Positions 4,001 to 38,445 of a stretch of DNA of 48,890 nucleotides are shown in pieces. A model generated the notes under the pieces. That model worked only from the letters and a program-made list of their open reading frames with translations. It ran no database searches and was not told the DNA's origin. Origin of the DNA: Herpetosiphonaceae bacterium (lineage in GTDB: Bacteria > Chloroflexota > Chloroflexia > Chloroflexales > Kallotenuaceae). The DNA lies in NCBI GenBank assembly GCA_036374795.1, contig DASUTC010000303.1, positions 1-48,890 of the forward strand. Direction: 5' to 3'. The translations under genes were made by a program, and so were the position numbers. Numbering within the stretch: the stretch's first letter is position 1; the number at the start of each line of letters is the position of its first letter.

Positions 4001-4135
4001 GCCTCTCCCTCACGCAGTTCACAGCCTGTCCGCCCAAGGTAAAGCGGTCGGAATACGCTCCCCTTGTTTCCGACCGCTCTCAGGAGGCCCACATGGCGTG
4101 GTTAGCGCCGTAGTGTTAGCAAGCTCTATGCCAGC

Positions 4136-4160
4136 CAAGTTCAAAGTTTCGAGGTTATTC
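4136..4160 (-). repeat. Short fragment of the dispersed GTTCAA/TTTCGA repeat
   Basis: AAGTTCAAAGTTTCGAGGTT overlaps the stop codon of the HExxH gene. It resembles the repeat family at 26635, 28681, 34984 and 38334 but is short and could be chance. Confidence 0.3.
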
Positions 4161-16785: not shown

Positions 16786-16885
16786 GCGTGCATGAGCAAA
16801 GGAACAAGGGCCGCATCATGAATCTGCGCGCTGCAGCCAGGATTCAGGGCGGCATGCCATAGATTCAGAATTGAGGAGGAAAGCG

Positions 16886-24693: not shown

Positions 24694-26601
24694 CTAGCGG
24701 AACATCGCGGGCATCCAGATGCGCGAGTGGACCAACTGGTACACCCGCACGTAGTCGAAGTTGGCGGTAAAGCCGGTGCCGCCCATCGACACCAGGCCGA
24801 TGCGCGCGCTGGTGCCCAGGCTATGCGTCCACGTGCCGCCGCGCACCCACTGCGCGCCGGGAGCGTCGCGCTTGGTGTAGGCGGTGTAGTGCTCAGCGCC
24901 GGCGTGCGTGCGCTTGACGATCCGCAGATAGGTCCACTCGTCGGGCGGGCCGATCAGCGTGCTGCCGTAGAACGGGCCTTTGCTGACATCGACGTACTCG
25001 CGGGCAAACTCGGTCTGGCGCGTCTCCCAGATCGAGGCATGCACCAGCTTGAGATACCGATCGTCGTCGCCGTAGATCACCAGACCGGCCTGGACGTAGT
25101 TGAAGCAGCAGCCCTCGGCAGGCAGACTCAGCCTGACCCGCGTCTCGACCACATAGTTGCCGCTGGGCGCGGCCTCGGTCAGCACCGACGCGCTGTTGTT
25201 GGTCTGGTACAGATCCGCTCCCTGCGTCTCGAAGCGGAACGACTCGCCGGTCAGCCCGAACTGGTCGGCGGCTGGCTCGCGTACCCAGCTCCAGCGCGGG
25301 CTAAGCGACGCACCGTTGAACTCGTCGGAGAACGCTTCGAGCAACGGCCCGGGCTCGTCCATCGGCGCGGGCGGCGTGCGATAGGCCGTCGTGTCGCCGG
25401 GCTGGGCTGCGGGCGCTGGCTGTGGCGTATCGGAGATCCAGTGGCCGCCGCGCACTGTCGGCCAGCCGTCGATCCAATCGAGCGCATCCAGCAGCACGGG
25501 CCGCTTGGTGAAGTTATCGGTTCCGGCAAAATACGGATCGTTCTGGTCGATCGCGTGATAGATCGTCCAGTCCTGGCCCTCGAAGTCGGTGAAAACGGTG
25601 TTATGGCCCGGCCCGACCCAGCGGTTGCCGTTCAGGCTGAGCACGGGCGTGCCCCCGACGCGACCGGCCAGCAGCGAAACGCCCTCGCGATCGACGAACG
25701 GGCCGGTCGGGCTGGCCGCTCGGCCAGCGTAGACGCTGTAGCCGGTCTGCGGGCCGTTGCAGCAGTTCGACGCCGACACAAACAGGTAGTAGTAGTCATC
25801 GTGCCGGACGACCTCCGCGCCCTCGTAACGGTTGGCGATCGTCACCTGCACGGCGCTCTCGGCGGGCGCGGTAAATCCATCGGCGGAGAGCATACGCACC
25901 TGAATGCCGCCGTAGTAGCTGCCGTAGTAGATGTACTTCTGTGGCTCGCTGTACTCATCGACCGGCTCAGCCACGATCACTTCGGGGTCGAAGGTCCAGA
26001 AGAAGTTGCAGCCGGGGCCGTTGCGGCGTGGCTCGACCACCGGACGACCGATGTCGTCCCAGGGGCCGAGCGGGCTGCTGCTCGTGGCGACGCCGATCGC
26101 GTTATCGCCGCCGCAGTTGGGCTCGCCGCTGACCTCGGTCTTGACATCGGTGATGCCGTAGTAGAGATAATACTTGCCGTTGAAATAATCGATTTCGGGA
26201 GCCCACACGCCCGCCGTCGGCTCGCCCCACGAGGGCACGGCGGCGAACGCATCGCCCATATAGGTCCAGTTGACCAGATCGAGCGAGCGCAGCATCGGGA
26301 TCTTATGGAAATTGAAGTTATCGCCGGTCTTATCCTCGTCGTTGAGCGGATCGGTCGTGCAGTACATGTACCAGTAGGTATCGCCCGGCTGCTGGCCGCG
26401 AATGACCGAGGGATCGGCGCAGCTTTCGACCAGACCGTCGCCGGGGATCTGGACCGGCAGCGGGTTGGTGTAGGTTCCGGCGCTGACGCGGACCTCGGCG
26501 GATGACACCCGCGCGCCAGCGGCCAGCCCGACGATCAGCAGCAGAGACAGCAGGTGGACGAGTAGACGCGGCGGTCGTCGCCGCAAGATACGCCCTTGCA
26601 T
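24694..26601 (-). CDS. Secreted GH43 glycoside hydrolase with C-terminal beta-sandwich
   Basis: 635 residues. A signal peptide (about 1-35) precedes a five-bladed beta-propeller of GH43 (about 45-400): candidate general base Asp63 (ESCADPSVI), candidate modulator Asp205 (TFDPEVIV) and candidate acid Glu263 (RYEGAEVV), with APEIDYFNGKYYLYYG. Residues about 430-620 form a concanavalin-like module (DEFNGASLSPRWSW; FNYVQAGLVIYGDDDRYLKL) of the type that follows GH43 xylosidases and arabinofuranosidases. Family knowledge suggests activity on arabinan, arabinoxylan or xylan oligomers; the exact bond cannot be read. It is last in the operon and has a copy of the dispersed leader repeat before its start. 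Confidence 0.92.
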   Translation of the reverse strand: MQGRILRRRPPRLLVHLLSLLLIVGLAAGARVSSAEVRVSAGTYTNPLPVQIPGDGLVESCADPSVIRGQQPGDTYWYMYCTTDPLNDEDKTGDNFNFHKIPMLRSLDLVNWTYMGDAFAAVPSWGEPTAGVWAPEIDYFNGKYYLYYGITDVKTEVSGEPNCGGDNAIGVATSSSPLGPWDDIGRPVVEPRRNGPGCNFFWTFDPEVIVAEPVDEYSEPQKYIYYGSYYGGIQVRMLSADGFTAPAESAVQVTIANRYEGAEVVRHDDYYYLFVSASNCCNGPQTGYSVYAGRAASPTGPFVDREGVSLLAGRVGGTPVLSLNGNRWVGPGHNTVFTDFEGQDWTIYHAIDQNDPYFAGTDNFTKRPVLLDALDWIDGWPTVRGGHWISDTPQPAPAAQPGDTTAYRTPPAPMDEPGPLLEAFSDEFNGASLSPRWSWVREPAADQFGLTGESFRFETQGADLYQTNNSASVLTEAAPSGNYVVETRVRLSLPAEGCCFNYVQAGLVIYGDDDRYLKLVHASIWETRQTEFAREYVDVSKGPFYGSTLIGPPDEWTYLRIVKRTHAGAEHYTAYTKRDAPGAQWVRGGTWTHSLGTSARIGLVSMGGTGFTANFDYVRVYQLVHSRIWMPAMFR

Positions 26602-26634
26602 CGTTCTTCCCCTTTCCGAGCCCCTACATCGATG

Positions 26635-26688
26635 TTCCAGGTTTCAAGCTTCGAGTTTGGAGTTTCGTCGAACGTTGAACTTGGTTCT
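26635..26688 (-). repeat. Dispersed leader repeat, copy A
   Basis: Read on the minus strand it contains AAGTTCAACGTTCGACGAAA and, further on, AACTCGAAGCTTGAAACC. It fills the gap between the two GH43 genes, upstream of the second start and in the same orientation as that gene. GGAAAGGGGAAGAAC next to the start recurs beside copy D. Confidence 0.7.
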
Positions 26689-26689
26689 C

Positions 26690-27790
26690 TTATGGAAGCG
26701 CCTGCGGCACGTTATCCGGCCCTTTCACCACCGGAGTATCGCCCTCCCAGACCAACTCATCGATCATCATGCGCCGATAGGTGACGGTCGGGTCCCACGA
26801 GTGATAGATCATCCAGGCCTCGCCGTCCTTATCCAGCACAATATCCTGACCGCCCGGACCAAGCGCAGCGGCATTGTTGAGGTCGCTCCTGAGAACCGGG
26901 TTTTTTTCGGGCTTGGTGTACGGGCCGAGGATCTGATCCGCCACAGCATGCCCGACCGTGTAGTCGATCCCGGCGTAATTGTTGGCCGAGTAGAACAGGT
27001 GGTACTTGCCCGCGTGCTTCCACAGCGTCGGCGCTTCGACCACAATCCCTTCCCAGGGCTGATCGTTCTCGATCAGCTTCGTCGGCTCGCTTTCGAGCGT
27101 CAGGCCATCGGCGGAAACCTTCTGGAGATAGATGCGCGTCGACGAGCCGCAGCAGTTGCCGTCGTTCTTCCACAGCAGATAGCGCGTGCCGTCGTCGTCG
27201 ACAAACGAGCCTGCATCGATCGCGCCGCCCTCCTCCATCGGACAGATAAAGGGCTTGTCGGCAGTTGACTGGAACGGGCCTTCCGGCTTGTCGCTGGTTG
27301 CCACGCCGATGCACTGGCGCGTCGTCTCGGCGACGCGCGCGGTAAAGTACATCACATAGCCCTTCCCGTCGGCGGTCGTCGTGACCTCAGGTGCCCAGGT
27401 AAAGCCGCCGCTGGCCCAGCCCGGCAAGGCTGGAAGCGCCTCACCCACAACCTGCCAGTGGGCGAGATCGGTGGACGTGGCGGTCTGCACGTTGGTCCCG
27501 CCGGTATTCGTCGCGTAGGCGTAGTAGGTATCGCCGACTTTCAGCGTGTCGGGATCTGGAAAATCCTGGTCGAGGATCGGATTGGCAAACTCGTTCGGGC
27601 CGGGCGTTGGGATCGGCGTCGGGCCAGTGGTGGGCGTGGGCGGGCTGCTGGCTTGCGCCACCGGACTCGCCGCGCTCGACGGAGCCGCGCTGGACTCGGC
27701 GCTCGGCTGCGCGCCGCCCTGCGTATTGCCACACGCGGCCAGCAGCAGCGCAGCGATCAGCAGCAAGCTGCGCACAATCACATGTCTCAT
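26690..27790 (-). CDS. GH43 glycoside hydrolase lipoprotein
   Basis: 366 residues. A lipoprotein signal (LIAALLLAAC, Cys20) is followed by a Ser/Ala/Pro linker (about 21-66) and a compact GH43 propeller. Catalytic candidates are Asp79 (QDFPDPDT), Asp192 (AIDAGSFVDDDG) and Glu252 (IVVEAPTLW), with TWAPEV. This arrangement is typical of arabinan-endo-1,5-arabinosidase/arabinofuranosidase-like GH43. It starts three bases after the stop of the upstream permease gene, so it is translated from the transport operon and anchored near the transporter. Like its neighbour it has a double-Cys loop (NDGNCCGSST). Confidence 0.92.
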   Translation of the reverse strand: MRHVIVRSLLLIAALLLAACGNTQGGAQPSAESSAAPSSAASPVAQASSPPTPTTGPTPIPTPGPNEFANPILDQDFPDPDTLKVGDTYYAYATNTGGTNVQTATSTDLAHWQVVGEALPALPGWASGGFTWAPEVTTTADGKGYVMYFTARVAETTRQCIGVATSDKPEGPFQSTADKPFICPMEEGGAIDAGSFVDDDGTRYLLWKNDGNCCGSSTRIYLQKVSADGLTLESEPTKLIENDQPWEGIVVEAPTLWKHAGKYHLFYSANNYAGIDYTVGHAVADQILGPYTKPEKNPVLRSDLNNAAALGPGGQDIVLDKDGEAWMIYHSWDPTVTYRRMMIDELVWEGDTPVVKGPDNVPQALP

Positions 27791-27793
27791 GCG

Positions 27794-28663
27794 CTAGCCC
27801 TTCAATCCGCTCATCGCCACGCTCTGGACGATGTAGCGTTGCAGCAACATGTACAGGAGCAGCACCGGCACGGCGGTCACGGCAGCGCCGGCCATCAGCT
27901 TGCCGTAGTCGAAGGTATACTGGCCCTGGATCGTCGCCAGGCCCACCGGCAGCGTTTGCATCGTCCGGTCGTTCAGCACCAGCAGCGGCCAGAGAAAATC
28001 GTTCCACGAGGCCATAAACGTAATCACGGCCAGCGTTGCCAGCGCGCCTTTCGCCAGCGGCAGCACCACACGATAGAAGGTCGTCCAGGTACCGGCCCCA
28101 TCGATGCGCGCGGCCTCCTCCAACTCCTTGGGAACGCCCTGGAAGAACTGGCGCATAAAGAACACACCGAAGACACCGGCCAGGCCAGGAGCCATCACGC
28201 CCTGATACGTATTCAGCCAGTTGAGCCGGTTGATCGTCAGATAGTTTGGAATCAGGAACATCAGGCCGGGCATGACAAGTGTCGCCAGCAGCAGCCCAAA
28301 GAGCACATTCCGGCCCGGAAATTCCATGCGCGCGTAGGCGTAGCCCGCCAGCGAGTCGATGATCAGGACCAGCGTGGTAAACACACTGGCGATACCCAGG
28401 CTGTTGGCAAACCAGCGCAGCGCCGGTAACGTCGGGTCGGAGAAGATCGAGCGGAAGTTATCAAGCGTCGGATTATTTGGAATCCAGTTCGGCTGTACCC
28501 ACTCCTCGAACGGCTTGATCGCCGTCACGAACATCCACAGCAGAGGCAACAAAAAAAAGAGCGTACAGAGAATCAGCACGGCATACAAGAGAGCTCTCGA
28601 TAGAACACGAGTGCCCGCTGGGCCGCTGCTTACACGCTCGGCTGGTACACTGGCTGAAGCCAT
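27794..28663 (-). CDS. Carbohydrate ABC transporter permease (MalG type)
   Basis: 289 residues from MASASVPAE. AAAAGGAGG upstream fits this ATG, whereas a GTG nine bases earlier overlaps the Shine-Dalgarno. Six membrane segments and the cytoplasmic EAA loop (ELEEAARIDGAGTWTTFYRV) define a binding-protein-dependent transport permease of the CUT1 MalG class. It pairs with the upstream permease and the binding protein. The ATPase (MsmX/MalK type) is not in the window and is probably shared from elsewhere. Confidence 0.95.
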   Translation of the reverse strand: MASASVPAERVSSGPAGTRVLSRALLYAVLILCTLFFLLPLLWMFVTAIKPFEEWVQPNWIPNNPTLDNFRSIFSDPTLPALRWFANSLGIASVFTTLVLIIDSLAGYAYARMEFPGRNVLFGLLLATLVMPGLMFLIPNYLTINRLNWLNTYQGVMAPGLAGVFGVFFMRQFFQGVPKELEEAARIDGAGTWTTFYRVVLPLAKGALATLAVITFMASWNDFLWPLLVLNDRTMQTLPVGLATIQGQYTFDYGKLMAGAAVTAVPVLLLYMLLQRYIVQSVAMSGLKG

Positions 28664-28680
28664 GGCAGACACCTCCTTTT

Positions 28681-28749
28681 TCGAGTTTCGGGTGTCGAGT
28701 TCATCGAACGTTGAACCTGGAACGCTGAACGTTGAGCCTCGTCCCCCGA
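28681..28749 (-). repeat. Dispersed leader repeat, copy B
   Basis: On the minus strand: a GGGGGACGAGG head, then CTCAACGTTCAGCGTTCC, GGTTCAACGTTCGATGAACT and CGACACCCGAAACTCGA, ending directly at the AAAAGGAGG of the permease gene. Same orientation as the gene. Confidence 0.75.
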
Positions 28750-29682
28750 CTAGCGCTCCTCGGTGCGACCAAAGATGCGGAAGTTCAGCGTCGTGAGCAC
28801 CAGCAGGATGGCGGCGAAGAACACCGACATCGCGGCGGCGCTGCCCATGCGGTTTTGCAGGATGCCCTCATTGTAGATCCGCATCATGACTGGCTCGGTC
28901 GGCAGATATTGCGACCCGGTCATAATCCAGGGCTGTCCGAAGAGATTGGCCGAGGCGATCAGCGTGATCGTGATCACGAAAATCAGCACGGGTCGCAGCA
29001 TCGGCACGGTGATGCCGAAGAACTGCTGGATGCTATTCGCGCCGTCGATCGATGCGGCCTCGTAGAGCGACTCTGGAATATCCTGCAACGCGGCCAGAAA
29101 GATAATCGTGTTGAAGCCGATCGTCCACCACACGGTGCAGATCGTGATCGCGATCCAGGACCACGGGATCGCGCTGAGCCACGGCGGCTGGACCAGACCG
29201 AGCGTGCCCATGTAGGAGTTGATCAAGCCGCCCTGATCGAAGATCCAGCGCCAGAGCACCGCAGCGACCGTCACCGACAGCGCGTAGGGCGCGAAGTAGA
29301 TTCCGCGAAACAGGTTGCGGCCCCGGTAGTTGCCGTTCAGCAGCACAGCCAGCAGCAGCGCCAGGATCACCAGCGGCGGCACGCTGTACAGCAGAAACCA
29401 GCCCGTATTGCCCATCGAGCGCCAGAAATCGCTGAACTGGATGCTATTGCGGTTGATCAGCAGATCGGCGTAGTTTTGCAGACCGACGAAGGGCCGGTAC
29501 TCAGGCCGTAGAAAGTCGAAGTTGAACAAACTGATATAGATGCCGTAGAAAAACGGCCAGGCCAGAAACGCGAGGAAGAAAACAAGATGAGGCAAGATAA
29601 ACAAGTAGGGAGCCCAGCTAAAGCGTTGTCTCATTCTTTCGCGGGGGATCGTCGCCGCCCGCGCCTGGTTGACTGTAGCCAT
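28750..29682 (-). CDS. Carbohydrate ABC transporter permease (MalF/UgpA type)
   Basis: 310 residues from MATVNQARAAT, with AGAGGATC before the ATG (the frame is open 25 codons earlier). Six hydrophobic segments; the EAA loop reads SLYEAASIDGANSIQQFFGI. CUT1 permeases of this kind import oligosaccharides with a periplasmic or tethered binding protein. It lies 95 bases after the binding-protein gene, and the gap holds a 24-bp palindrome that may reduce its transcription relative to the binding protein. Confidence 0.95.
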   Translation of the reverse strand: MATVNQARAATIPRERMRQRFSWAPYLFILPHLVFFLAFLAWPFFYGIYISLFNFDFLRPEYRPFVGLQNYADLLINRNSIQFSDFWRSMGNTGWFLLYSVPPLVILALLLAVLLNGNYRGRNLFRGIYFAPYALSVTVAAVLWRWIFDQGGLINSYMGTLGLVQPPWLSAIPWSWIAITICTVWWTIGFNTIIFLAALQDIPESLYEAASIDGANSIQQFFGITVPMLRPVLIFVITITLIASANLFGQPWIMTGSQYLPTEPVMMRIYNEGILQNRMGSAAAMSVFFAAILLVLTTLNFRIFGRTEER

Positions 29683-29731
29683 GATCCTCTGCCTTTCTAC
29701 CTCGAAAGGTGCTCGCCGCCGCAGAAGGTGC

Positions 29732-29755
29732 GGGAGTCCGAGCGCTCGGACTCCC
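29732..29755 (-). terminator. Perfect 24-bp palindrome between binding-protein and permease genes
   Basis: GGGAGTCCGAGC / GCTCGGACTCCC with no spacer, a very stable RNA hairpin just after the binding-protein stop codon. In ABC sugar operons such hairpins protect the upstream mRNA and attenuate the permease genes. Confidence 0.75.
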
Positions 29756-29777
29756 ACACATCGATCAAGACAGCGTA

Positions 29778-31196
29778 CTAGCCGCCGCCGTACTGCTGTG
29801 CGTTCTGCTTCAGCAGTTGGTTCGAGCGCTGGGCCGCCTGATCCAGCGCGGCCTTGATGTCGCTCTGCTGACCGAGCAAAATCGGGTTGACGGCTCGACC
29901 GAAGCCCTCAGGGCCGAGCGCACCGCTGATGCCGGGGATCGAGGGCGGGAACTGCATCGACTCGGCTTCCTTGGCGAATGCCGCAACCGGCGCAGCGATA
30001 GTTGCCAGCTCAGGGCTATTGCGGGCAGAGTTGCGCGCCGGAACCTGGCCGGCCTTGGCCCACTGCACCGAGTTCTCGGAGAGCCAGGCGATCCAGCAGG
30101 CTGCCGCCGCCGCCTTAGCCGGGTCTTCTGTGGTCAGGGCAAGCTGGTGCGAGCCGCCGATCGCCACATATTCGTCGCCGATCTGCGGCACCATCGCAAA
30201 GCCGGTGAACGGCAGCTTCTGAAGGTTGCTGATGTGCCACGGGCCGTGGATCACCATCGCCGCCTTGCCCTGCTGGAACTGCGTCACCTCAGGATCGCCC
30301 TGGCCCTGGATCGTCGGCGAGTACTTCTGCTTCAGATCGCGCAGGTAGGTCATCGCCTGCACGCCCGCCTCGCTGTTATAGGTCGCCTCGGTGCCTTCCT
30401 CGTTCGAGAGCGCGCCGCCAAACTGCCGGATCAGCATGTCGAAGAAGGTTTCGCCGCTGTAGAGCGTGCCGATCGCGATGCCCGCGACGCCGTTGGCGTT
30501 GAGCTTCTCCGCCGCCGCCTCAAACTCCTGCCGATTCATTGGCCGGTCGGTCGGCATAGTGATGCCAGCCTGCTGGAAGAGATCTTTGTTGTAGTACAGC
30601 ACTTGCGGGTTGACATCCAGCGGCACCGAGAAGCGCTGATCCTTGTACGTGCCGCCGTTCCACACCGCTTCGGGGAAGTCCGCATCGTCGGCGGCGATGA
30701 TGCCAAGCGCCTCGTCGGACATCGGCTTGAGCACGTTGCGCGCGGCCATCTCCGGAACATCGGTGACGCGCACCACGGTCATATCGGGCAGGTTCTTGCC
30801 TGCCGCCGCCGTGTTCAGCTTCTGGAGGTATTCGGGCTGCGGCACATGCTGAACCTTGATCCCGCGCTGGTTCTCCTGGCTGAACTGGTTCGCCAGAGCA
30901 GTCATCTCGTCGCCATCGGGTCCGGTGAGCGGGCTCCACATCGTAATCTGCTGGCCTTGCGCCGCATCCGGGCACGCTCCCGCGCTCGCCGTACCGCCTG
31001 CCGCGCCGCTAGCCGCTGGCGATCCACTCGCCGCCGGGCTCGTCGCCGGGCTAGCGCCCGTGCCGCCTGCCGTCGCCGCCGGGCTAGCACCTGTGCCCCC
31101 GGTCGTCCCTGCGTCGCCGCCACATGCTGCAAGCAGCAGGGCCAGCACACTCATCACTGCGATGAGCGCCACCATTCTGTGCAATCGATTCGACAT
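29778..31196 (-). CDS. Extracellular solute-binding lipoprotein (family 1)
   Basis: 472 residues. Lipobox LALLLAAC (Cys25), then a low-complexity Gly/Ala/Ser/Pro linker (about 26-75; GASPATSPAAS) and a type 1 (MalE-like) binding domain: QQITMWSPLTGPDG, ALANQFSQENQRGIKVQHV, DVNPQVLYYNKDLFQQAGI, FQQGKAAMVIHGPWHISNL. It captures sugars for the two downstream permeases. The ligand is presumably the product of the co-encoded GH43 enzymes, arabino- or xylo-oligosaccharides (inference). Confidence 0.95.
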   Translation of the reverse strand: MSNRLHRMVALIAVMSVLALLLAACGGDAGTTGGTGASPAATAGGTGASPATSPAASGSPAASGAAGGTASAGACPDAAQGQQITMWSPLTGPDGDEMTALANQFSQENQRGIKVQHVPQPEYLQKLNTAAAGKNLPDMTVVRVTDVPEMAARNVLKPMSDEALGIIAADDADFPEAVWNGGTYKDQRFSVPLDVNPQVLYYNKDLFQQAGITMPTDRPMNRQEFEAAAEKLNANGVAGIAIGTLYSGETFFDMLIRQFGGALSNEEGTEATYNSEAGVQAMTYLRDLKQKYSPTIQGQGDPEVTQFQQGKAAMVIHGPWHISNLQKLPFTGFAMVPQIGDEYVAIGGSHQLALTTEDPAKAAAAACWIAWLSENSVQWAKAGQVPARNSARNSPELATIAAPVAAFAKEAESMQFPPSIPGISGALGPEGFGRAVNPILLGQQSDIKAALDQAAQRSNQLLKQNAQQYGGG

Positions 31197-31271
31197 CGTG
31201 ATCCTCCTTGATCTAGCCTGACCGCCAACTCAAGACGAAACGTAGATCGTGCTGAAGCTGCCTCCTGACCG

Positions 31272-31288
31272 TGATAGCTGATCTATCA
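31272..31288. promoter_or_regulatory. Operator-like palindrome upstream of the binding-protein gene
   Basis: TGATAG-CTGAT-CTATCA, 6-bp arms, overlapping the stop codon of the regulator gene and lying 76 bases before the binding-protein start. The TATCA/TGATA half-sites recur in the divergent promoter region at 32345 and 32397, which suggests a common regulator. Confidence 0.45.
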
Positions 31289-32284
31289 GCCGCCGATGAT
31301 CGGCGGGGTTAGGGTTTCGGGATCGGCGCGCTTGCCCGGCACGTATTCCAGGCGCAGCACTAAGTCCTGCGGATAATTGCCAAACGATTGACCAAACAGG
31401 TTGACTCCGCCGACATGCAGCGCATCTGCTTTCACGCCCAGGCGTATCTTGATCACTCGCTGCTGCTCGACGCCCAGGCCGTGAGTCGTCACCTCCGAGA
31501 GCGGACGACCATCAATACACGTGCCGTCGCTGTTGACCAGCCAGCGCTTCAGCAGGCCGTACTGCGTATCTTTCTCGTCCCACCAGTCGGGCGTGAGCAC
31601 ACCGCGCTGGCCGCCAAAATCCGCCGGACAGGTCCAGGTGCCGACCTCGTGGCCGTTGATCCACATCGTAATGTCCGACGGCCAGTGGCTATGGTGCAGC
31701 GGAGCCTCCGAGCAGATCTCCATGCTCAGTTGCAGGCTCAGCAGCTTCGCGCCGGTCGGCAGGCGATTGGGAAAGACATACTCGACAAAGCCGCTGCGAA
31801 ACCAGAGCAGCCCGGCGTGAATGCGATCCGGCTCGTAGAAGCAGAGCGGATCGTCCAGATAGCCGATCAGCCCGGTCGAGCTGGCAAGGCCGCAGGTTGG
31901 CTGCACCTCAAAGGCCGCATACGCGCCGATCGGCATTGTCACCTCGACGCTGTTGCGCGCGATGGCGGGCGCGAACGGCAGTTGGATGCTGACGTTATCG
32001 TAGGTGCGGGTGCAGATCTTTTGGAGGCCATGCGTTGCCGCTTGCAGCTCGCTATAGACCAGCCCGGCCTCTTCGAGCACCTTGATATGCGCCGCTGCGG
32101 TCGACGGCGGCAGCTCAAGCGCGTCTGACACCTCGTTAACCGAGTGACCACCGCTGGCGAGGTACTGCAAAATACGCCAGCGCGGAGCCGATGCCAGCGC
32201 CTTGAGCATCGTAACTGCTGTCTCCGCCGGAATATTGGCATCTATGTGCAACGTTTTGCCGTGCAACACCGCAGCTTCTTTCAC
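31286..32284 (-). CDS. ArsR-type HTH regulator with C-terminal beta-sandwich sensor domain
   Basis: 332 residues from a GTG start with no strong Shine-Dalgarno. Residues about 20-95 are a winged HTH (TMLKALASAPRWRILQYLAS; LPPSTAAAHIKVLEEAGLV), ArsR/HTH_20-like, but without the metal-binding Cys pattern of true ArsR. Residues about 105-320 are beta-rich with many aromatics (DITMWINGHEVGTWTCPADF; VLTPDWWDEKDTQYGLLKRW; GGVNLFGQSFGNYPQDLVLR), like a galactose-binding or jelly-roll domain. This suggests a one-component sugar sensor. It sits between the divergent transport/GH43 operon and the 811-residue and GH2 genes and is the obvious local regulator. Confidence 0.85.
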   Translation of the reverse strand: MKEAAVLHGKTLHIDANIPAETAVTMLKALASAPRWRILQYLASGGHSVNEVSDALELPPSTAAAHIKVLEEAGLVYSELQAATHGLQKICTRTYDNVSIQLPFAPAIARNSVEVTMPIGAYAAFEVQPTCGLASSTGLIGYLDDPLCFYEPDRIHAGLLWFRSGFVEYVFPNRLPTGAKLLSLQLSMEICSEAPLHHSHWPSDITMWINGHEVGTWTCPADFGGQRGVLTPDWWDEKDTQYGLLKRWLVNSDGTCIDGRPLSEVTTHGLGVEQQRVIKIRLGVKADALHVGGVNLFGQSFGNYPQDLVLRLEYVPGKRADPETLTPPIIGG

Positions 32285-32536
32285 TCATGCCGATGAGAGT
32301 GTGATGAGGATCGTAGTTGACAATTCTGCTTTGACACAGCAATATATCAATCGACGCAAAAGAGTATAATTTAGTCGGCTTTTTTCGTCAATTGTGTATC
32401 AGTGATAAGCACGCCTAGCATTTCGTATGCCAGCAGCGCTCCGCAACGTCGTCGTCAACTCATGATCATACGTGAGTCACACTCAAGCTTCGATGCCACC
32501 TTGTCGTAATGCAGGCGAATTACAACAGGAAAAGCT
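32285..32536. promoter_or_regulatory. Divergent control region of the polysaccharide locus
   Basis: An AT-rich 250-bp gap. It contains TTGACA at 32317 and 32331, a perfect TATAAT at 32365-32370, TATCA at 32345, and the palindrome TATCA-G-TGATA at 32397-32407. No single pair gives 17-bp spacing, so the exact promoters are uncertain. TATCA/TGATA half-sites are shared with 31272-31288. Confidence 0.5.
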
Positions 32537-34972
32537 GTGTCGATGCAAGACTCTTCCACAGTGCGGTACCTGAACAACGAGGCCGGGACGACTCTCAGCG
32601 CTACGCGGGGGCCGGATGGCTGGTCGCTGTACGTCGCGCGCGAGCAGGAGGCGCGCGCGACGATCGAGCCGCCGCATCTGCAACTGCCTGATGGCACGCT
32701 CGTCGGCGGGCGCTGGGAGACGCTGACGAGCGTCGAGGGCGGGCTGCTGGCGCAGGGCACCGTCGCGCACGCGGCAGGGCGGGTACAGTGCGACCTCCGG
32801 CTGGTCTTCGATTCCAGCCCTGAGCAGCCGCTTGCGCTCGACTGGCAGATCGATTTTGTCGACGGCCCGTTTACCGGCGCGCTGGTGTACGGCTGGACGC
32901 TGCACGGTGTCGAGCGCGATCCGGGGCGGCTCGATCTGCCGAGCCTGCACTACGGCTGCGCGACCTACGGCACGGGCATGTTCCCGCACCCCGATCCGCG
33001 CAGCGGCTTTGCCTTTCGGGCCGACCGCATGGCCCAGGCGGCGCTCCACTACAGCGCGGCCACAGCAACCTGGAGCATCTTCGCGCCCAGCGAAACGCCG
33101 GAGCCGGTCGTTGCCGAGCAGATGTATGCGATCGGCGCGACGCCGACCGAGCAGGAGACGGGGCTGCGCGTGTTTTTCCGCTATCCGCAGCAGGAGTTCG
33201 GCCATCGGGGAGACGGCAGCGACGAGGCGTATATCGGCAAAGAGACGTTCGCGCCGGGCGAGCAGGTCTACCGCGAGTTCGACGCGGGCAGCACGCTGCG
33301 CTCAACGTTCTTTGTGCTGTGCCGCCCGCCTGCCGCCGCCCACGATCATGCCACGGCGATGCGCTTTCTGTGGCGGCGCTACGCGGGACCGCGCGCGGCG
33401 CGGCCTGAGCAAACGCTGCTCAGCCAGGCCGGGCGGCATATCCGCTGGTTCAACCGGCGGCTCTATAATCCGAGCGTCGGCGGCGGCCAGTACGAGTCGC
33501 CCGAAGGATCGGGCACGGCCATGCTCGGCTTTGTCGAGCAATCGCTGCTGATGGCAAGCACGACGCTGCGCTACGCCGCGCTCTGCGCCGCAGCCGCGCC
33601 GCTGCCCCCCGACGAGCTGCGCCACTACTGCGAGCAGGCCGCCGGAGCGCTGACGCGCTGGGCGACGGAGGGCCGCACGCCTGAGGGCCTGCTCTATCCC
33701 GCCTGCGATCGAAGCGGCTATCACTTCGGCTACCGCAACTACGGCGACTACGAAAACCTGACGATCGTGCGCGATGAGAGCCTCGACACGATCCGCCTGG
33801 CAAGCGAGGCCCGCAGCCTGCTTGCCGCCGCGTGGAGCGCGCAGCTTGCGCAGCCGCGCGCCAGCGAGGAGCCGCAGATCTGGGCCGAGGCCGCGCTGTC
33901 GGTGGCGCGGTGGATCGTCGAGCACCGCCTGCCAAAGGGCGGCTATGCCGGACGCTATCACCGGACGGGCCAGCCGCTTGATCCGTATCCCAGCGGCACG
34001 TCAGCGGTGATCGGGCTGTTCGCCGAGTGTGCCCGCTGGCTGGACGAGCGCGATCCCGCCACAAGCCAGCGCTACCGCGAGCTAGCCGTCCAGGCATACG
34101 ACGATGCGCTTGGCGCGCTGATCGCGGCGGGCGTCTTCGGCGGCGGCACGCTGGACGCCTCCTGTCCCGACCGCGAGGCGGCGATTGCGGCGCTGGACGC
34201 CTGCATCACGCTCTACGAGCTGACCGACGATCCGCGCTTTCTGGAGGCCGGTCGCGGCGCTGCCGACAATATTCTGAGCTATACGTTCGTCTATCCGATC
34301 ACGACGTTTGGAGCCGATAGCGATGCCAGCCGCCGCCGGATCTCAACCTTCGGCGCGTCGACGGTATCGCCGGAGAACCAGCACCTCGATCCGGTATCGA
34401 CCGCGCCGTGCCTGCTGCTGTACGGCCTCTACACCGGCGACGACGTGGCGGTCCACGCGGCGGTCGAGACGCTGCACTGGACGCTCGATGGACGCTGGGC
34501 TTTCGATGAGCCTGACGGCCTGAAGCAATCCGAGCAACTGCTGCACACGCGCTGGTACTACAATACCTTCTTCTCGCGGCGCGGCGATGTGCGCGTCGGG
34601 ATGCCGCTGTGGGGCCGCAGCGACAGCGAGCATGGCTGGCCGCAGGTGGTGCCGACGGCGGCATTCTTAGGCACCGGCCAGGTGGTGCTGGACTGGCGCA
34701 CCGGGCGCGCGGTGGGCGTGGACGGCTGGCAGGTGTCGCAGAGCCAGCAGCCATCGGAGCGCGAGGTGGTCCTGAAGCTGGCCCCGACTGATAGCGCCGC
34801 CGATCAGGGCCATGCGGCTATGTGCTTAAAAGTGCTGCGTTTGCCACAATCCAGGCTGCAATTAGATCTGAACGGCGAGCGCTCGATCGTTCAGTCGTCG
34901 CAACTGGAACACGGCTACCTGCTCGACGTGCCACTTTCCCACAACAGTACACTACGCCTGAGCCAACAGTAA
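32537..34972 (+). CDS. Unclassified protein, probable cytoplasmic glycosidase with (alpha/alpha)-barrel
   Basis: 811 residues from GTG (AGGA six bases upstream; ATG 6 bases later is an alternative). No signal peptide. Residues about 1-260 are beta-rich (WQIDFVDGPFTGALVYGWTL; GLRVFFRYPQQEFG). Residues about 290-670 are a string of amphipathic helices with DESLDTIRLASEARSLLAAA, YRELAVQAYDDALGALIAAG and TAPCLLLYGLYTGDD, the look of an (alpha/alpha)6 barrel as in GH family clans of rhamnosidases and arabinofuranosidases (GH78/GH127-like). The C-terminus is again beta-rich. No GH family signature is certain. Its position beside GH2 and opposite GH43 and ABC genes makes a glycosidase likely. Candidate acids include the E and D in PEGSGTAM, RDESLD and ENQHLD. 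Confidence 0.75.
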   Translation: MSMQDSSTVRYLNNEAGTTLSATRGPDGWSLYVAREQEARATIEPPHLQLPDGTLVGGRWETLTSVEGGLLAQGTVAHAAGRVQCDLRLVFDSSPEQPLALDWQIDFVDGPFTGALVYGWTLHGVERDPGRLDLPSLHYGCATYGTGMFPHPDPRSGFAFRADRMAQAALHYSAATATWSIFAPSETPEPVVAEQMYAIGATPTEQETGLRVFFRYPQQEFGHRGDGSDEAYIGKETFAPGEQVYREFDAGSTLRSTFFVLCRPPAAAHDHATAMRFLWRRYAGPRAARPEQTLLSQAGRHIRWFNRRLYNPSVGGGQYESPEGSGTAMLGFVEQSLLMASTTLRYAALCAAAAPLPPDELRHYCEQAAGALTRWATEGRTPEGLLYPACDRSGYHFGYRNYGDYENLTIVRDESLDTIRLASEARSLLAAAWSAQLAQPRASEEPQIWAEAALSVARWIVEHRLPKGGYAGRYHRTGQPLDPYPSGTSAVIGLFAECARWLDERDPATSQRYRELAVQAYDDALGALIAAGVFGGGTLDASCPDREAAIAALDACITLYELTDDPRFLEAGRGAADNILSYTFVYPITTFGADSDASRRRISTFGASTVSPENQHLDPVSTAPCLLLYGLYTGDDVAVHAAVETLHWTLDGRWAFDEPDGLKQSEQLLHTRWYYNTFFSRRGDVRVGMPLWGRSDSEHGWPQVVPTAAFLGTGQVVLDWRTGRAVGVDGWQVSQSQQPSEREVVLKLAPTDSAADQGHAAMCLKVLRLPQSRLQLDLNGERSIVQSSQLEHGYLLDVPLSHNSTLRLSQQ

Positions 34973-34983
34973 TGCGCCGATAG

Positions 34984-35070
34984 GCCGGGGGACGAACGTT
35001 CAAAGTTCAACGTTCAACGTTCGATGAACTCGAAACGTGAAACTTGAAGCTTGAAACTCAACGCTCGAAG
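34984..35070 (+). repeat. Dispersed leader repeat, copy C (best copy)
   Basis: GCCGGGGGACGAACGTTC head, then runs of GTTCAA/GTTCAACGTTC, GATGAACTCGAAACGTGAAA and CTTGAAGCTTGAAACTCAAC, ending at the AAAGGA of the GH2 gene. Same orientation as that gene. It has internal direct and inverted repeats (AACGTT cores, TTCGA). Confidence 0.8.
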
Positions 35071-35087
35071 CCAAAGGAATGAATATA

Positions 35088-36932
35088 GTGAATCACGCTC
35101 ATGCTTATCCGCGTCCACAGCTTGAACGCAAAAACTGGACATCGCTCAACGGCACGTGGGATTTTGCCCTCGACCCCGCCGCCGCCTGGGTGCGGCCCGA
35201 TCAGGTCGCGTGGAACGCTTCGATCGCCGTGCCGTTCTCGCCCGAAGCCGAGGCTAGCGGCATCGGCGATACCGGATTTTATCGCGCCTGCTGGTATCGC
35301 CGCAGCTTCGACGCGCCGGAGCTCGACACCAATCGGCTGATCCTGCACTTCGGGGCGGTCGACTATGCGGCGACCGTCTGGCTCAACGGCAGGATGATCG
35401 CGCGGCATGAGGGCGGCTATACGCCCTTCAAGATCGACATCACCGACTATCTGGTGACGAACAGGTCGCAGACGCTGGTCGTGCGCGCCGAGGACGATCC
35501 CCAGGATCTGGCAAAGCCGCGCGGCAAGCAGGACTGGCATTTGCACCCGCACGCGATCTGGTATCCGCGCACCACCGGCATCTGGCAGACGGTCTGGCTT
35601 GAGCAGGTGCCCAGAATCTCGATCGGCGGCCTGCGCTGGACGCCAAATCTGGCTCACTGGGAGCTGGGGCTTGAGGCGCATATCGACGGCGAGCCAAGCG
35701 AGCATCTGCGGCTGCATGTGACGCTTGAGGCTAACGGCAAGCTGCTGGCCGACGATACCTATCGCGTGATCGATGGGGACGTCTTCCGGCGGATCGCGCT
35801 CTCCGATCCCGGCATCGACGATTACCGCAACGAGCTGCTGTGGAGCCCGCAGCAGCCGACGCTGATCCAGGCGCATCTCCAGCTCTGGGCCGGTCGCGGA
35901 CAATTGATCGACGAGGTTTTCAGCTACACGGCGCTGCGGCAGATCGAGGTGCAGGGCGATCGATTTTTGCTGAATGGACGCCCGTTCACGCTGCGGATGG
36001 TGCTCGACCAGGGCTACTGGCCCGCAACCGGCCTGACCGCGCCCAACGATGACGCGCTCCGGCGCGATGTGCTGCTGGCAAAGGCGATGGGCTTCAACGG
36101 CGTGCGCAAGCATCAGAAGATCGAAGATCCACGCTACCTGTACTGGGCCGATACGCTCGGCCTGCTGGTCTGGGAAGAGATGCCCAGCGCCTACCGCTTC
36201 ACGCGGCGCTCCGTCGAGCGCCTGATCCGCGAGTGGACCGACGCGATCGAGCGTGATTACAGCCATCCGTGTATCGTCGCCTGGGTGCCGTTCAACGAGT
36301 CCTGGGGCATTCCCGATCTGCCGGACATTCTTGAGCAGCGCCATTATGTCCAGACGCTCTATCACCTGACCAAGACGCTCGATCCGACTCGTCCGGTGAT
36401 CGGCAACGACGGCTGGGAGAGCGTTGCGACCGACATCATCGGCATCCACGACTACGATCAGCAGCCCGATCAGCTTGCGCTGCGCTACCGCTCCGACGAG
36501 GTCGTCGGGCGGCTGTTTACCCGCGAGCGTCCCGCAGGCCGTCTGCTGACGCTCGAAGGACATCCCCACACCGGCCAGCCAATCATGCTGACCGAGTTCG
36601 GCGGCATTGCGCTCTCTGCCGATACGTCGACCACCTGGGGCTATACCCGCAGCGACGACGGCGAGGATCTGGGACGGCAGTACACTGCGCTGCTCGAAGG
36701 CGTGCGCGCCGCGCGGATGCTGGCGGGCTTCTGTTACACGCAGTTCGCCGACACCTATCAGGAGGCGAACGGGCTGCTCTACGCCGACCGAAGGCCGAAG
36801 TTTCCGTTTGAGCAGATGCGCGATGCCACGCGCGGGCCGCGCGGCGAGCAGCAGAAGCAGCTAGAGCGCCACTGGCAGGATCAGGTCATGGAGCTTCAGC
36901 GCATCGCTGAGCTGGATAACATCCGCGAGTAG
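35088..36932 (+). CDS. GH2-family glycoside hydrolase
   Basis: 614 residues. AAGGA lies nine bases before the GTG at 35088; an ATG nine bases earlier abuts the Shine-Dalgarno. The N-terminal sugar-binding domain (WTSLNGTWDFALDP; GFYRACWYRRSF; AATVWLNGRMIARHEGGYTP), an Ig-like domain and a TIM barrel follow the GH2 order. The acid/base is Glu404 in WVPFNESWG and the nucleophile Glu503 in MLTEFGG. No signal peptide, so it is intracellular. GH2 includes beta-galactosidase, beta-glucuronidase and others; the exact sugar is undetermined. It lies downstream of the 811-residue gene and probably in its operon. A strong terminator follows. Confidence 0.95.
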   Translation: MNHAHAYPRPQLERKNWTSLNGTWDFALDPAAAWVRPDQVAWNASIAVPFSPEAEASGIGDTGFYRACWYRRSFDAPELDTNRLILHFGAVDYAATVWLNGRMIARHEGGYTPFKIDITDYLVTNRSQTLVVRAEDDPQDLAKPRGKQDWHLHPHAIWYPRTTGIWQTVWLEQVPRISIGGLRWTPNLAHWELGLEAHIDGEPSEHLRLHVTLEANGKLLADDTYRVIDGDVFRRIALSDPGIDDYRNELLWSPQQPTLIQAHLQLWAGRGQLIDEVFSYTALRQIEVQGDRFLLNGRPFTLRMVLDQGYWPATGLTAPNDDALRRDVLLAKAMGFNGVRKHQKIEDPRYLYWADTLGLLVWEEMPSAYRFTRRSVERLIREWTDAIERDYSHPCIVAWVPFNESWGIPDLPDILEQRHYVQTLYHLTKTLDPTRPVIGNDGWESVATDIIGIHDYDQQPDQLALRYRSDEVVGRLFTRERPAGRLLTLEGHPHTGQPIMLTEFGGIALSADTSTTWGYTRSDDGEDLGRQYTALLEGVRAARMLAGFCYTQFADTYQEANGLLYADRRPKFPFEQMRDATRGPRGEQQKQLERHWQDQVMELQRIAELDNIRE

Positions 36933-38230: not shown

Positions 38231-38333
38231 CTACAACCTGCTCAACAACCGGCTGAACGTGACTCTCCGGCATACCGGTGTTTGACAAAGCGCATACAGC
38301 CGTGCTAGGGTACTTGCACGAGTGTGCCGTCAG

Positions 38334-38445
38334 GCCGGGGACGAGAGCACAAAGCACAGAGCACAGAGCACAAAGGAACAAAGGGGAAGAACCAACGTTG
38401 AACTTGAAACTTTGAACTCGCAACTTTGAACTCGAAACGCGGTTG
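38334..38445 (+). repeat. Dispersed leader repeat, copy D, with GAGCACA tandem
   Basis: A GCCGGGGACGAGAGCAC head, AGCACAGAGCACAGAGCACA tandem units, AAAGGGGAAGAACC, then AACGTTGAACTTGAAAC and two copies of ACTTTGAACTCG. It ends 12 bases before the ATG of the antirepressor gene, in the same orientation. Confidence 0.7.

Follow-up and report, generated by a model that had tools for sequence, protein, structure and literature searches.

Degenerate heptanucleotide arrays in the intergenic spacers of a Herpetosiphonaceae bacterium

The four repeat copies found ahead of genes in the window (the whole stretch of DNA analysed, 48,890 nt, which is all of contig C303), together with a fragment near position 4136, are degenerate tandem arrays of heptanucleotides with a period of 7 nt. 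These arrays look like tolerated, fast-evolving spacer DNA and not like a dedicated gene-control element. In kind they are heptameric intergenic repeats, which are already known (PMC4692102, PMC4679880, PMC6749651). The explanation that we favour, with a probability of about one half, is a lineage-specific spread of heptads into tolerant spacers, with the vocabulary homogenised within each genome and an orientation filter acting on the transcript or the protein. The interpretation given in the preliminary description, that of a leader element, is partly supported.

Repeat copies in the window and their vocabularies

The genome that includes the window (G000, hereafter this genome) consists of 7.75 Mb in 373 contigs. 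Its strongly over-represented intergenic 9-mers split into two purine-strand vocabularies, type I (AGAACAA, AGAACCA, GGAACAA, AGCACAA) and type II (GAACTTT, GAAACTT, GAACGTT, GAACTCG). In the notation used here, > stands for the purine strand in gene sense. The copies and their parts are the following.

4135..4157, minus strand: fragment with three II> units, CTCGAAACTTTGAACTTGG, directly past the stop of a minus-strand ORF
26603..26617, minus strand: GGAAAGGGGAAGAAC, adjoining the start of a GH43 gene; 13 nt of it reappear within copy D (38380-38392)
26630..26688, minus strand: copy A, between two GH43 genes, order II<II>; a short type I start GAACCAAG, then II< AAGTTCAACGTTC, then II> CGAAACTCCAAACTCGAAGCTTGAAACC
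28679..28749, minus strand: copy B, located between two sugar ABC permease genes (BPD_transp_1) whose gap it fills, order II<II>; head (TCGGGGGACGA), II< CAACGTTCAGCGTTCCAGGTTCAACGTTC, GATGAACTCG, II> GAAACTCGAAA
28739..28749, minus strand: head module of copy B, TCGGGGGACGA
34982..34995, plus strand: head module of copy C, AGGCCGGGGGACGA
34984..35070, plus strand: copy C (the reported copy), filling the gap ahead of a GH2 gene, order II<II>; head GGCCGGGGGACGA, II< AACGTTCAAAGTTCAACGTTCAACGTTC, GATGAACTCG, II> AAACGTGAAACTTGAAGCTTGAAACT
38332..38344, plus strand: head module of copy D, AGGCCGGGGACGA
38334..38445, plus strand: copy D, 5' of a P22_AR_N gene, order I>II>; head GCCGGGGACGA, I> (AGAGCACAAAGCACAGAGCAC...GAACAAAGGGGAAGAACC), II> AACGTTGAACTTGAAACTTTGAACTCGCAACTTTGAACTCGAAAC

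All four copies and the fragment were present at the sites first reported. In gene sense, copy C reads AACGTTC AAAGTTC AACGTTC AACGTTC GATGAACTCG AAACGTG AAACTTG AAGCTTG AAACTC, and copy D reads AGAGCAC AAAGCAC AGAGCAC AGAGCAC AAAGGAAC ... AACGTTG AACTTGA AACTTTG AACTCGC AACTTTG. The common head described for three copies, of GGGGACGA type, was recovered in B, C, and D, and it is a separate recurrent module. The string noticed in both A and D is 13 nt long (AAAGGGGAAGAAC) and is found in A as GGAAAGGGGAAGAAC. Copies B and C share an inverted match of 54 nt (85%).

It had been proposed that every full copy ends just before the Shine-Dalgarno sequence (SD) or ATG of the next gene and points the same way. 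Copies A to D do lie near the next start and in gene sense, all of them in gaps between same-strand genes, but this position is not specific to starts. Copy B begins at the upstream stop and copy C 12 nt past it and, because their gaps are short, both are as close to the upstream stop as to the next start.

The window also contains GH43, GH43, sugar ABC transporter, and GH2 genes (24694-36932), probably a cluster for hemicellulose use, and copies A to C lie between them. A two-unit type I piece, CAAAGGAACAAGGG (16797-16810), sits in sense in a codirectional gap and may be a further fragment. A long ACACCGACCAAT-type repeat with a period of 12 nt occupies 1483-2128, within the Thr/Pro/Asn-rich linker of an 877-aa ORF.

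Genome-wide position, order, and orientation of the arrays

About 1.37 Mb of this genome was examined, including some contigs picked because they carry matches; genes were called with a home-made coding model that gives approximate start positions. A strict detector, requiring chains of at least three heptads, found 155 chains compared with 4 in shuffled sequence, and GTTCAACGTTC occurred 50 times in the 7.75 Mb against once for its reversed control, which confirms that the family is dispersed. Another reversed-word control was uninformative because reversed words resemble reverse complements. The word detector gave 149 gaps with arrays: 119 of 588 codirectional gaps (20%), 21 of 116 convergent gaps (18%), and 9 of 110 divergent gaps (8%; p 0.002 for divergent versus codirectional). 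Extrapolated to the whole genome, this amounts to around 800 gaps, a figure on the high side owing to the choice of contigs.

The tandem 7-nt units, present above chance, and their bias to non-coding DNA place the arrays with intergenic heptameric repeats of the STRR/LSSR type. Near-perfect arrays of a single unit, typical of classic SSRs, were not found in this genome. Adjacent units were identical in 36% (type I) and 21% (type II) of cases, and units of different arrays in 14% and 12%, so the arrays are a degenerate variant and not a classic SSR.

The median array begins 16 nt past the upstream stop and ends 23 nt ahead of the next start. In gaps of at least 150 nt, 35 arrays were closer to the stop and 19 to the start, contrary to what a leader element would predict. 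Divergent gaps are where most true 5' leaders lie, and the depletion of arrays there also argues against such an element. Arrays are not confined to 5' untranslated regions, as a leader RNA would be; they occupy convergent gaps and in-frame coding linkers. The idea of a shared regulatory RNA fared no better, for there is no single conserved RNA and no common core among the copies, and no Rfam family matches the window.

Arrays inside genes are in frame, mostly in sense, and mostly located in a linker of NRPS adenylation domains (named from the motif, without a profile search) just before ELRAFL/ALRAYV...YMVP. The residues encoded there are hydrophilic, as in ELETRNVE or EQRTKNKEQ, and an array at the 3' end of another gene (C3:66389) forms the C-terminal tail of its product. 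Such arrays in coding linkers and gene tails are expected of a tolerance filter and not of a leader element. On contigs C242, C4, C130, C170, and C319, one NRPS linker site (VAYVV-array-ELRAFL..YMVP) was hit repeatedly, and in NRPS-like genes different modules carry different heptad words at that linker.

The order of neighbouring blocks is strongly restricted. Among 98 pairs we counted 39 I>II>, 33 I>I<, 11 II<I<, and 9 II<II>, and 6 of all other kinds. These four arrangements account for 92 of the 98 pairs, against 0.35 expected (maximum 0.54 in 2000 label shuffles), a count made with words taken from the same data; with the separate strict chain detector, 25 of 27 pairs obeyed the order. 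Read inward from either flank, each end is I> or II<, and left and right ends are independent of each other (39/33/9/11, Fisher p 0.61).

The earlier claim that orientation is not random holds genome-wide, since in codirectional gaps I>II> occurs 30 times and II<I< 7 times (p 2e-4), a bias toward gene sense. Recurrent GC modules lie between or ahead of the arrays, namely GGTGAGGGCC, CGGGTGCC..., and the AGGCCGGGG(ACGA) head. In codirectional gaps, the head module AGGC[C/T]GGGG was in sense in 30 cases and antisense in 6, and it preceded the heptads in 12 of 12 cases. Lack of bias in strand or position, or a mostly intragenic location, had been named as fatal to the leader interpretation; we found bias, and 18 of the 155 strict chains were intragenic, though genes cover about 83% of the sequence.

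Two sources of the sense bias were considered and rejected. Array-free gaps are 0.51 purine, and composition after stops therefore does not explain it. A replication-strand cause is contradicted by type II arrays that alternate strand along the chromosome of G048, a single-contig genome, and by array orientation in codirectional gaps, which goes with the gene strand; this is not a replichore effect.

Related genomes and known heptameric repeats

In the rplB-rpsS gap of this genome, an II<II> array of about 80 nt separates a conserved leader hairpin from the SD. The array site measures only about 18 nt in the same-genus genomes G100 and G123, and in G046, a member of the family, it is taken up by a short, unrelated stretch. 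The array is an addition between the conserved leader and the SD that is absent in these three genomes; no target-site duplication was seen there by eye. The hairpin-like leader itself (GGAGCGGGGCTGATGCTCC...CTGCCTTCTCCCC, contig C37) is conserved 5' of rpsS in the family and is a possible ribosomal-protein leader RNA. In another ribosomal-operon gap (C37:13828), the motif CGCAGTTCTCAATTCCCAATCCACAAGTGGAGCGCCC ... GACGAGATTTGTGAATTGTGAATTGCG is conserved across the family and looks like a structured RNA around a heptad array.

Other ribosomal-operon gaps with arrays in this genome are likewise occupied by period-7 arrays in G100 or G123, spelled in other words (ATCAGCA/AGCTGAT/GCTGAAA and AAGGATG). 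The words of the g4-g5 gap are fully different: GAACAAA/TTTGTTC in this genome, ATCAGCA/GCTGAAA in G100, and ATAGCTG in G123. At some homologous gaps of the sister species the arrays are missing. Of the lags 4-12 tested in the ribosomal-operon gaps of three same-genus species, lag 7 was the sole enriched one, with 6 gaps per species at z of at least 3 compared with 0-0.5 for other lags. Word counts show the same turnover: AGAACAAAGAACAAAG occurs 98 times in this genome, 69 in G144, once in G123, and not at all in G100, and AGCTGAWRGCTGA occurs 19 times in G100 and once here. Across 150 genomes of the class, the distribution of array words is very patchy.

The complete genome G048, of Roseiflexus type, has both vocabularies but in the order II>I<, with II> past stops and I< directly 5' of ATG, so that, immediately ahead of start codons, type I faces the mRNA with its pyrimidine-rich strand. 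It also has long near-perfect heptad runs. G140 carries I>I< together with hairpins of GGGGCTA heptads and of the octamer AAGATGAC; in these intergenic hairpins the purine arm comes first, the same architecture in other vocabularies. Some words are shared with distant phyla (Prevotella, Verrucomicrobiota, Geomonas), and the 20-mer TTGAACGTTGAACGTTGAAC was present in many phyla, in at least 120 stretches and often over ORFs. Since many type II arrays of the distant phyla overlap ORFs, we regard them as the same word class and not the same system.

Tandem heptamers dispersed between genes, as here, are also found as STRR heptamers in Calothrix and heterocystous cyanobacteria (cited in PMC4692102), a likeness by description only, and we know of no two-vocabulary grammar in them. 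The GGGAATC and GGGGA(C/T)T heptads of Xanthomonas and Nostoc resemble our arrays in having heterogeneous 7-nt units at many intergenic loci, nearer to the upstream ORF (28 nt on average in their case) and under-represented between divergent ORFs; they are transcribed in Xanthomonas, and their neighbour genes belong to no functional class (PMC4692102). Their words, however, are of the G-quadruplex type and show no strand preference (30% vs 35%), whereas our arrays have a sense bias, two co-occurring vocabularies, a block grammar, and a different wording at homologous gaps in sister species. No GGG tract or G-quadruplex motif was present in the common units here.

The TAACTGA repeats of Beggiatoaceae are likewise short intergenic heptamer arrays with a patchy phylogeny and unrelated downstream genes, but they consist of a single perfect word in 2-6 copies just 5' of starts (PMC4679880), unlike the degenerate, composite arrays of this genome, which are proximal to both stops and starts. 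Within Chloroflexota, the (GATAGRA)n family of Chloroflexus aurantiacus (Fam_1_14_23) is species-specific, scattered over the genome, and derived from one heptamer, as here; its word differs and it was described as satellites only (PMC6749651).

A search of the literature, which included few subscription journals, turned up neither the two-vocabulary grammar nor the independent ends, the sense bias, or the change of words at homologous gaps, and this is not proof of absence. These four properties turn the seven-base unit, and the filling of hundreds of loci by one word family, into testable questions, in particular whether copying between arrays homogenises the vocabulary and what determines polarity. 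Heptad repeats also supply proteins with new linkers (NRPS) and give rise to intercistronic RNA hairpins.

Origin of the arrays

Under the reading that we favour, arrays would be seeded and extended when replication slips or switches template at microhomologies. Where an end within an array is broken or stalled, it would copy heptads of other arrays in the 7-base register. Such copying would hold one vocabulary per genome and yield mosaics. Heptads would spread to sites that tolerate them: gaps of co-oriented genes, which are probably co-transcribed, convergent gaps, the 3' tails of genes, and linkers between NRPS domains. A filter would then remove unfavourable orientations, and single arrays need not be regulatory. 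In mRNA, pyrimidine-rich strands would expose a YC dimer (UC in this genome) about every 7 nt, much like a Rho site, and in coding sequence antisense arrays would give hydrophobic stretches. Rho is present in this genome; since G048 tolerates type I in pyrimidine sense, avoidance of Rho sites alone cannot account for the filter in every genome.

Exact matches between gaps reach 45 nt at most, the longest lying in the GC module GGTGAGGGCC. Together with the low identity of neighbouring units, this indicates mosaics of shared words and not recent copies. Growth by replication error with exchange of heptads is favoured by that low identity, by the lack of long shared copies and of reverse transcriptase or intact Y1 genes, and by the near independence of the arms. 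Of the three origins offered in the preliminary description, a by-product of recombination (or replication) comes closer than a regulatory RNA or a mobile leader. Plain slippage or copying would predict neither the strict polarity nor the independence of the ends.

Slippage acting locally, with every gap producing an ordinary heptamer microsatellite on its own, would agree with reports cited in PMC4679880 and PMC4692102 that in many bacteria no class of long SSR is more abundant than heptamers and that the 7-nt unit is linked to slippage (Mrazek 2007), with the near-perfect runs of G048, and with neighbouring units being somewhat more alike than distant ones. Independent slippage would, however, leave each locus with a single word and produce no grammar, whereas about six words recur across many gaps in fixed order and polarity and adjacent units mostly differ (64-79%); we consider it quite improbable. 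A two-ended miniature element of REPIN or MITE type, mobilised in trans by a transposase and since decayed, is very unlikely. Its two-ended grammar, its lack at some orthologous sites of sister species, and the patchy presence among near relatives would fit, and REP/REPIN elements too are hundreds of short intergenic elements with inverted pairs. The ends of our arrays, however, are variable heptads, no near-identical REP core was found in inverted pairs, no core common to gaps exceeds 45 nt, and the rplB-rpsS gap lacks a visible duplication. The only Y1 transposase (RAYT) sequence in this genome is a 35-residue fragment with a stop, and reverse transcriptase (PF00078) is absent here and present in 7 of the 15 genomes searched; REPIN/RAYT and reverse-transcriptase writers were rejected for want of these genes. 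More broadly, a dedicated writer would extend every 3' end exposed at a break or gap in one of the two heptad languages, by a telomerase-like enzyme or by hairpin elongation with a DNA polymerase, and the ends would then be joined. The statistically independent ends, the arms that resemble separate draws from a vocabulary, and the other vocabularies of related genomes are as it would predict; with neither a candidate enzyme nor a template RNA identified, and with the order II>I< of G048 breaking the end rule of this genome, we rate it as highly improbable. A wider version, unlikely though less so, is a species-specific heptad language in intercistronic spacers, kept by an active writing or homogenising process, with two independently chosen ends from two vocabularies; its words would change completely from one sister species to the next at constant period 7 and position.

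The arrays might instead be a functional intercistronic RNA module in which words drift and structure is conserved, so that neighbouring cistrons are insulated, processed, or tuned in translation; I>I< and II<II> would form hairpins, and purine-rich II> an unstructured segment for the approach of the ribosome before the SD. Closeness to stop and start alike, the gene-sense bias, and the inverted pairs (33 I>I<, 9 II<II>) speak for it, as does folding beyond shuffles in more than one species (z -3.9/-5.3/-3.8 for the g11-g12 gap and -4.5/-4.1/-3.0 for g22-g23), and MacGregor proposed translational control for the TAACTGA heptamers (PMC4679880). Against this, arms of I>I< barely fit their own partner better than a swapped one (p about 0.04), those of II<II> are not matched above chance, 469 of 588 codirectional gaps have no array, many homologous gaps lack one, arrays also occur within NRPS coding sequence, and the downstream genes are unrelated. 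We therefore hold a module of this kind to be rather unlikely. I>II> arms scored better with their own than with a swapped partner, in a comparison where arm length was uncontrolled, and we give this score no weight.

A fold-back origin of the I>I< hairpins was rejected because their arms are little better matched than swapped arms. The occurrence of I>I< within ribosomal-protein operons argues against intrinsic terminators, and integron-like cassettes were dismissed by reasoning, as arrays sit within these operons. Some gaps fold as RNA in excess of shuffles (z to -5.9), and part of the arrays may therefore be functional.
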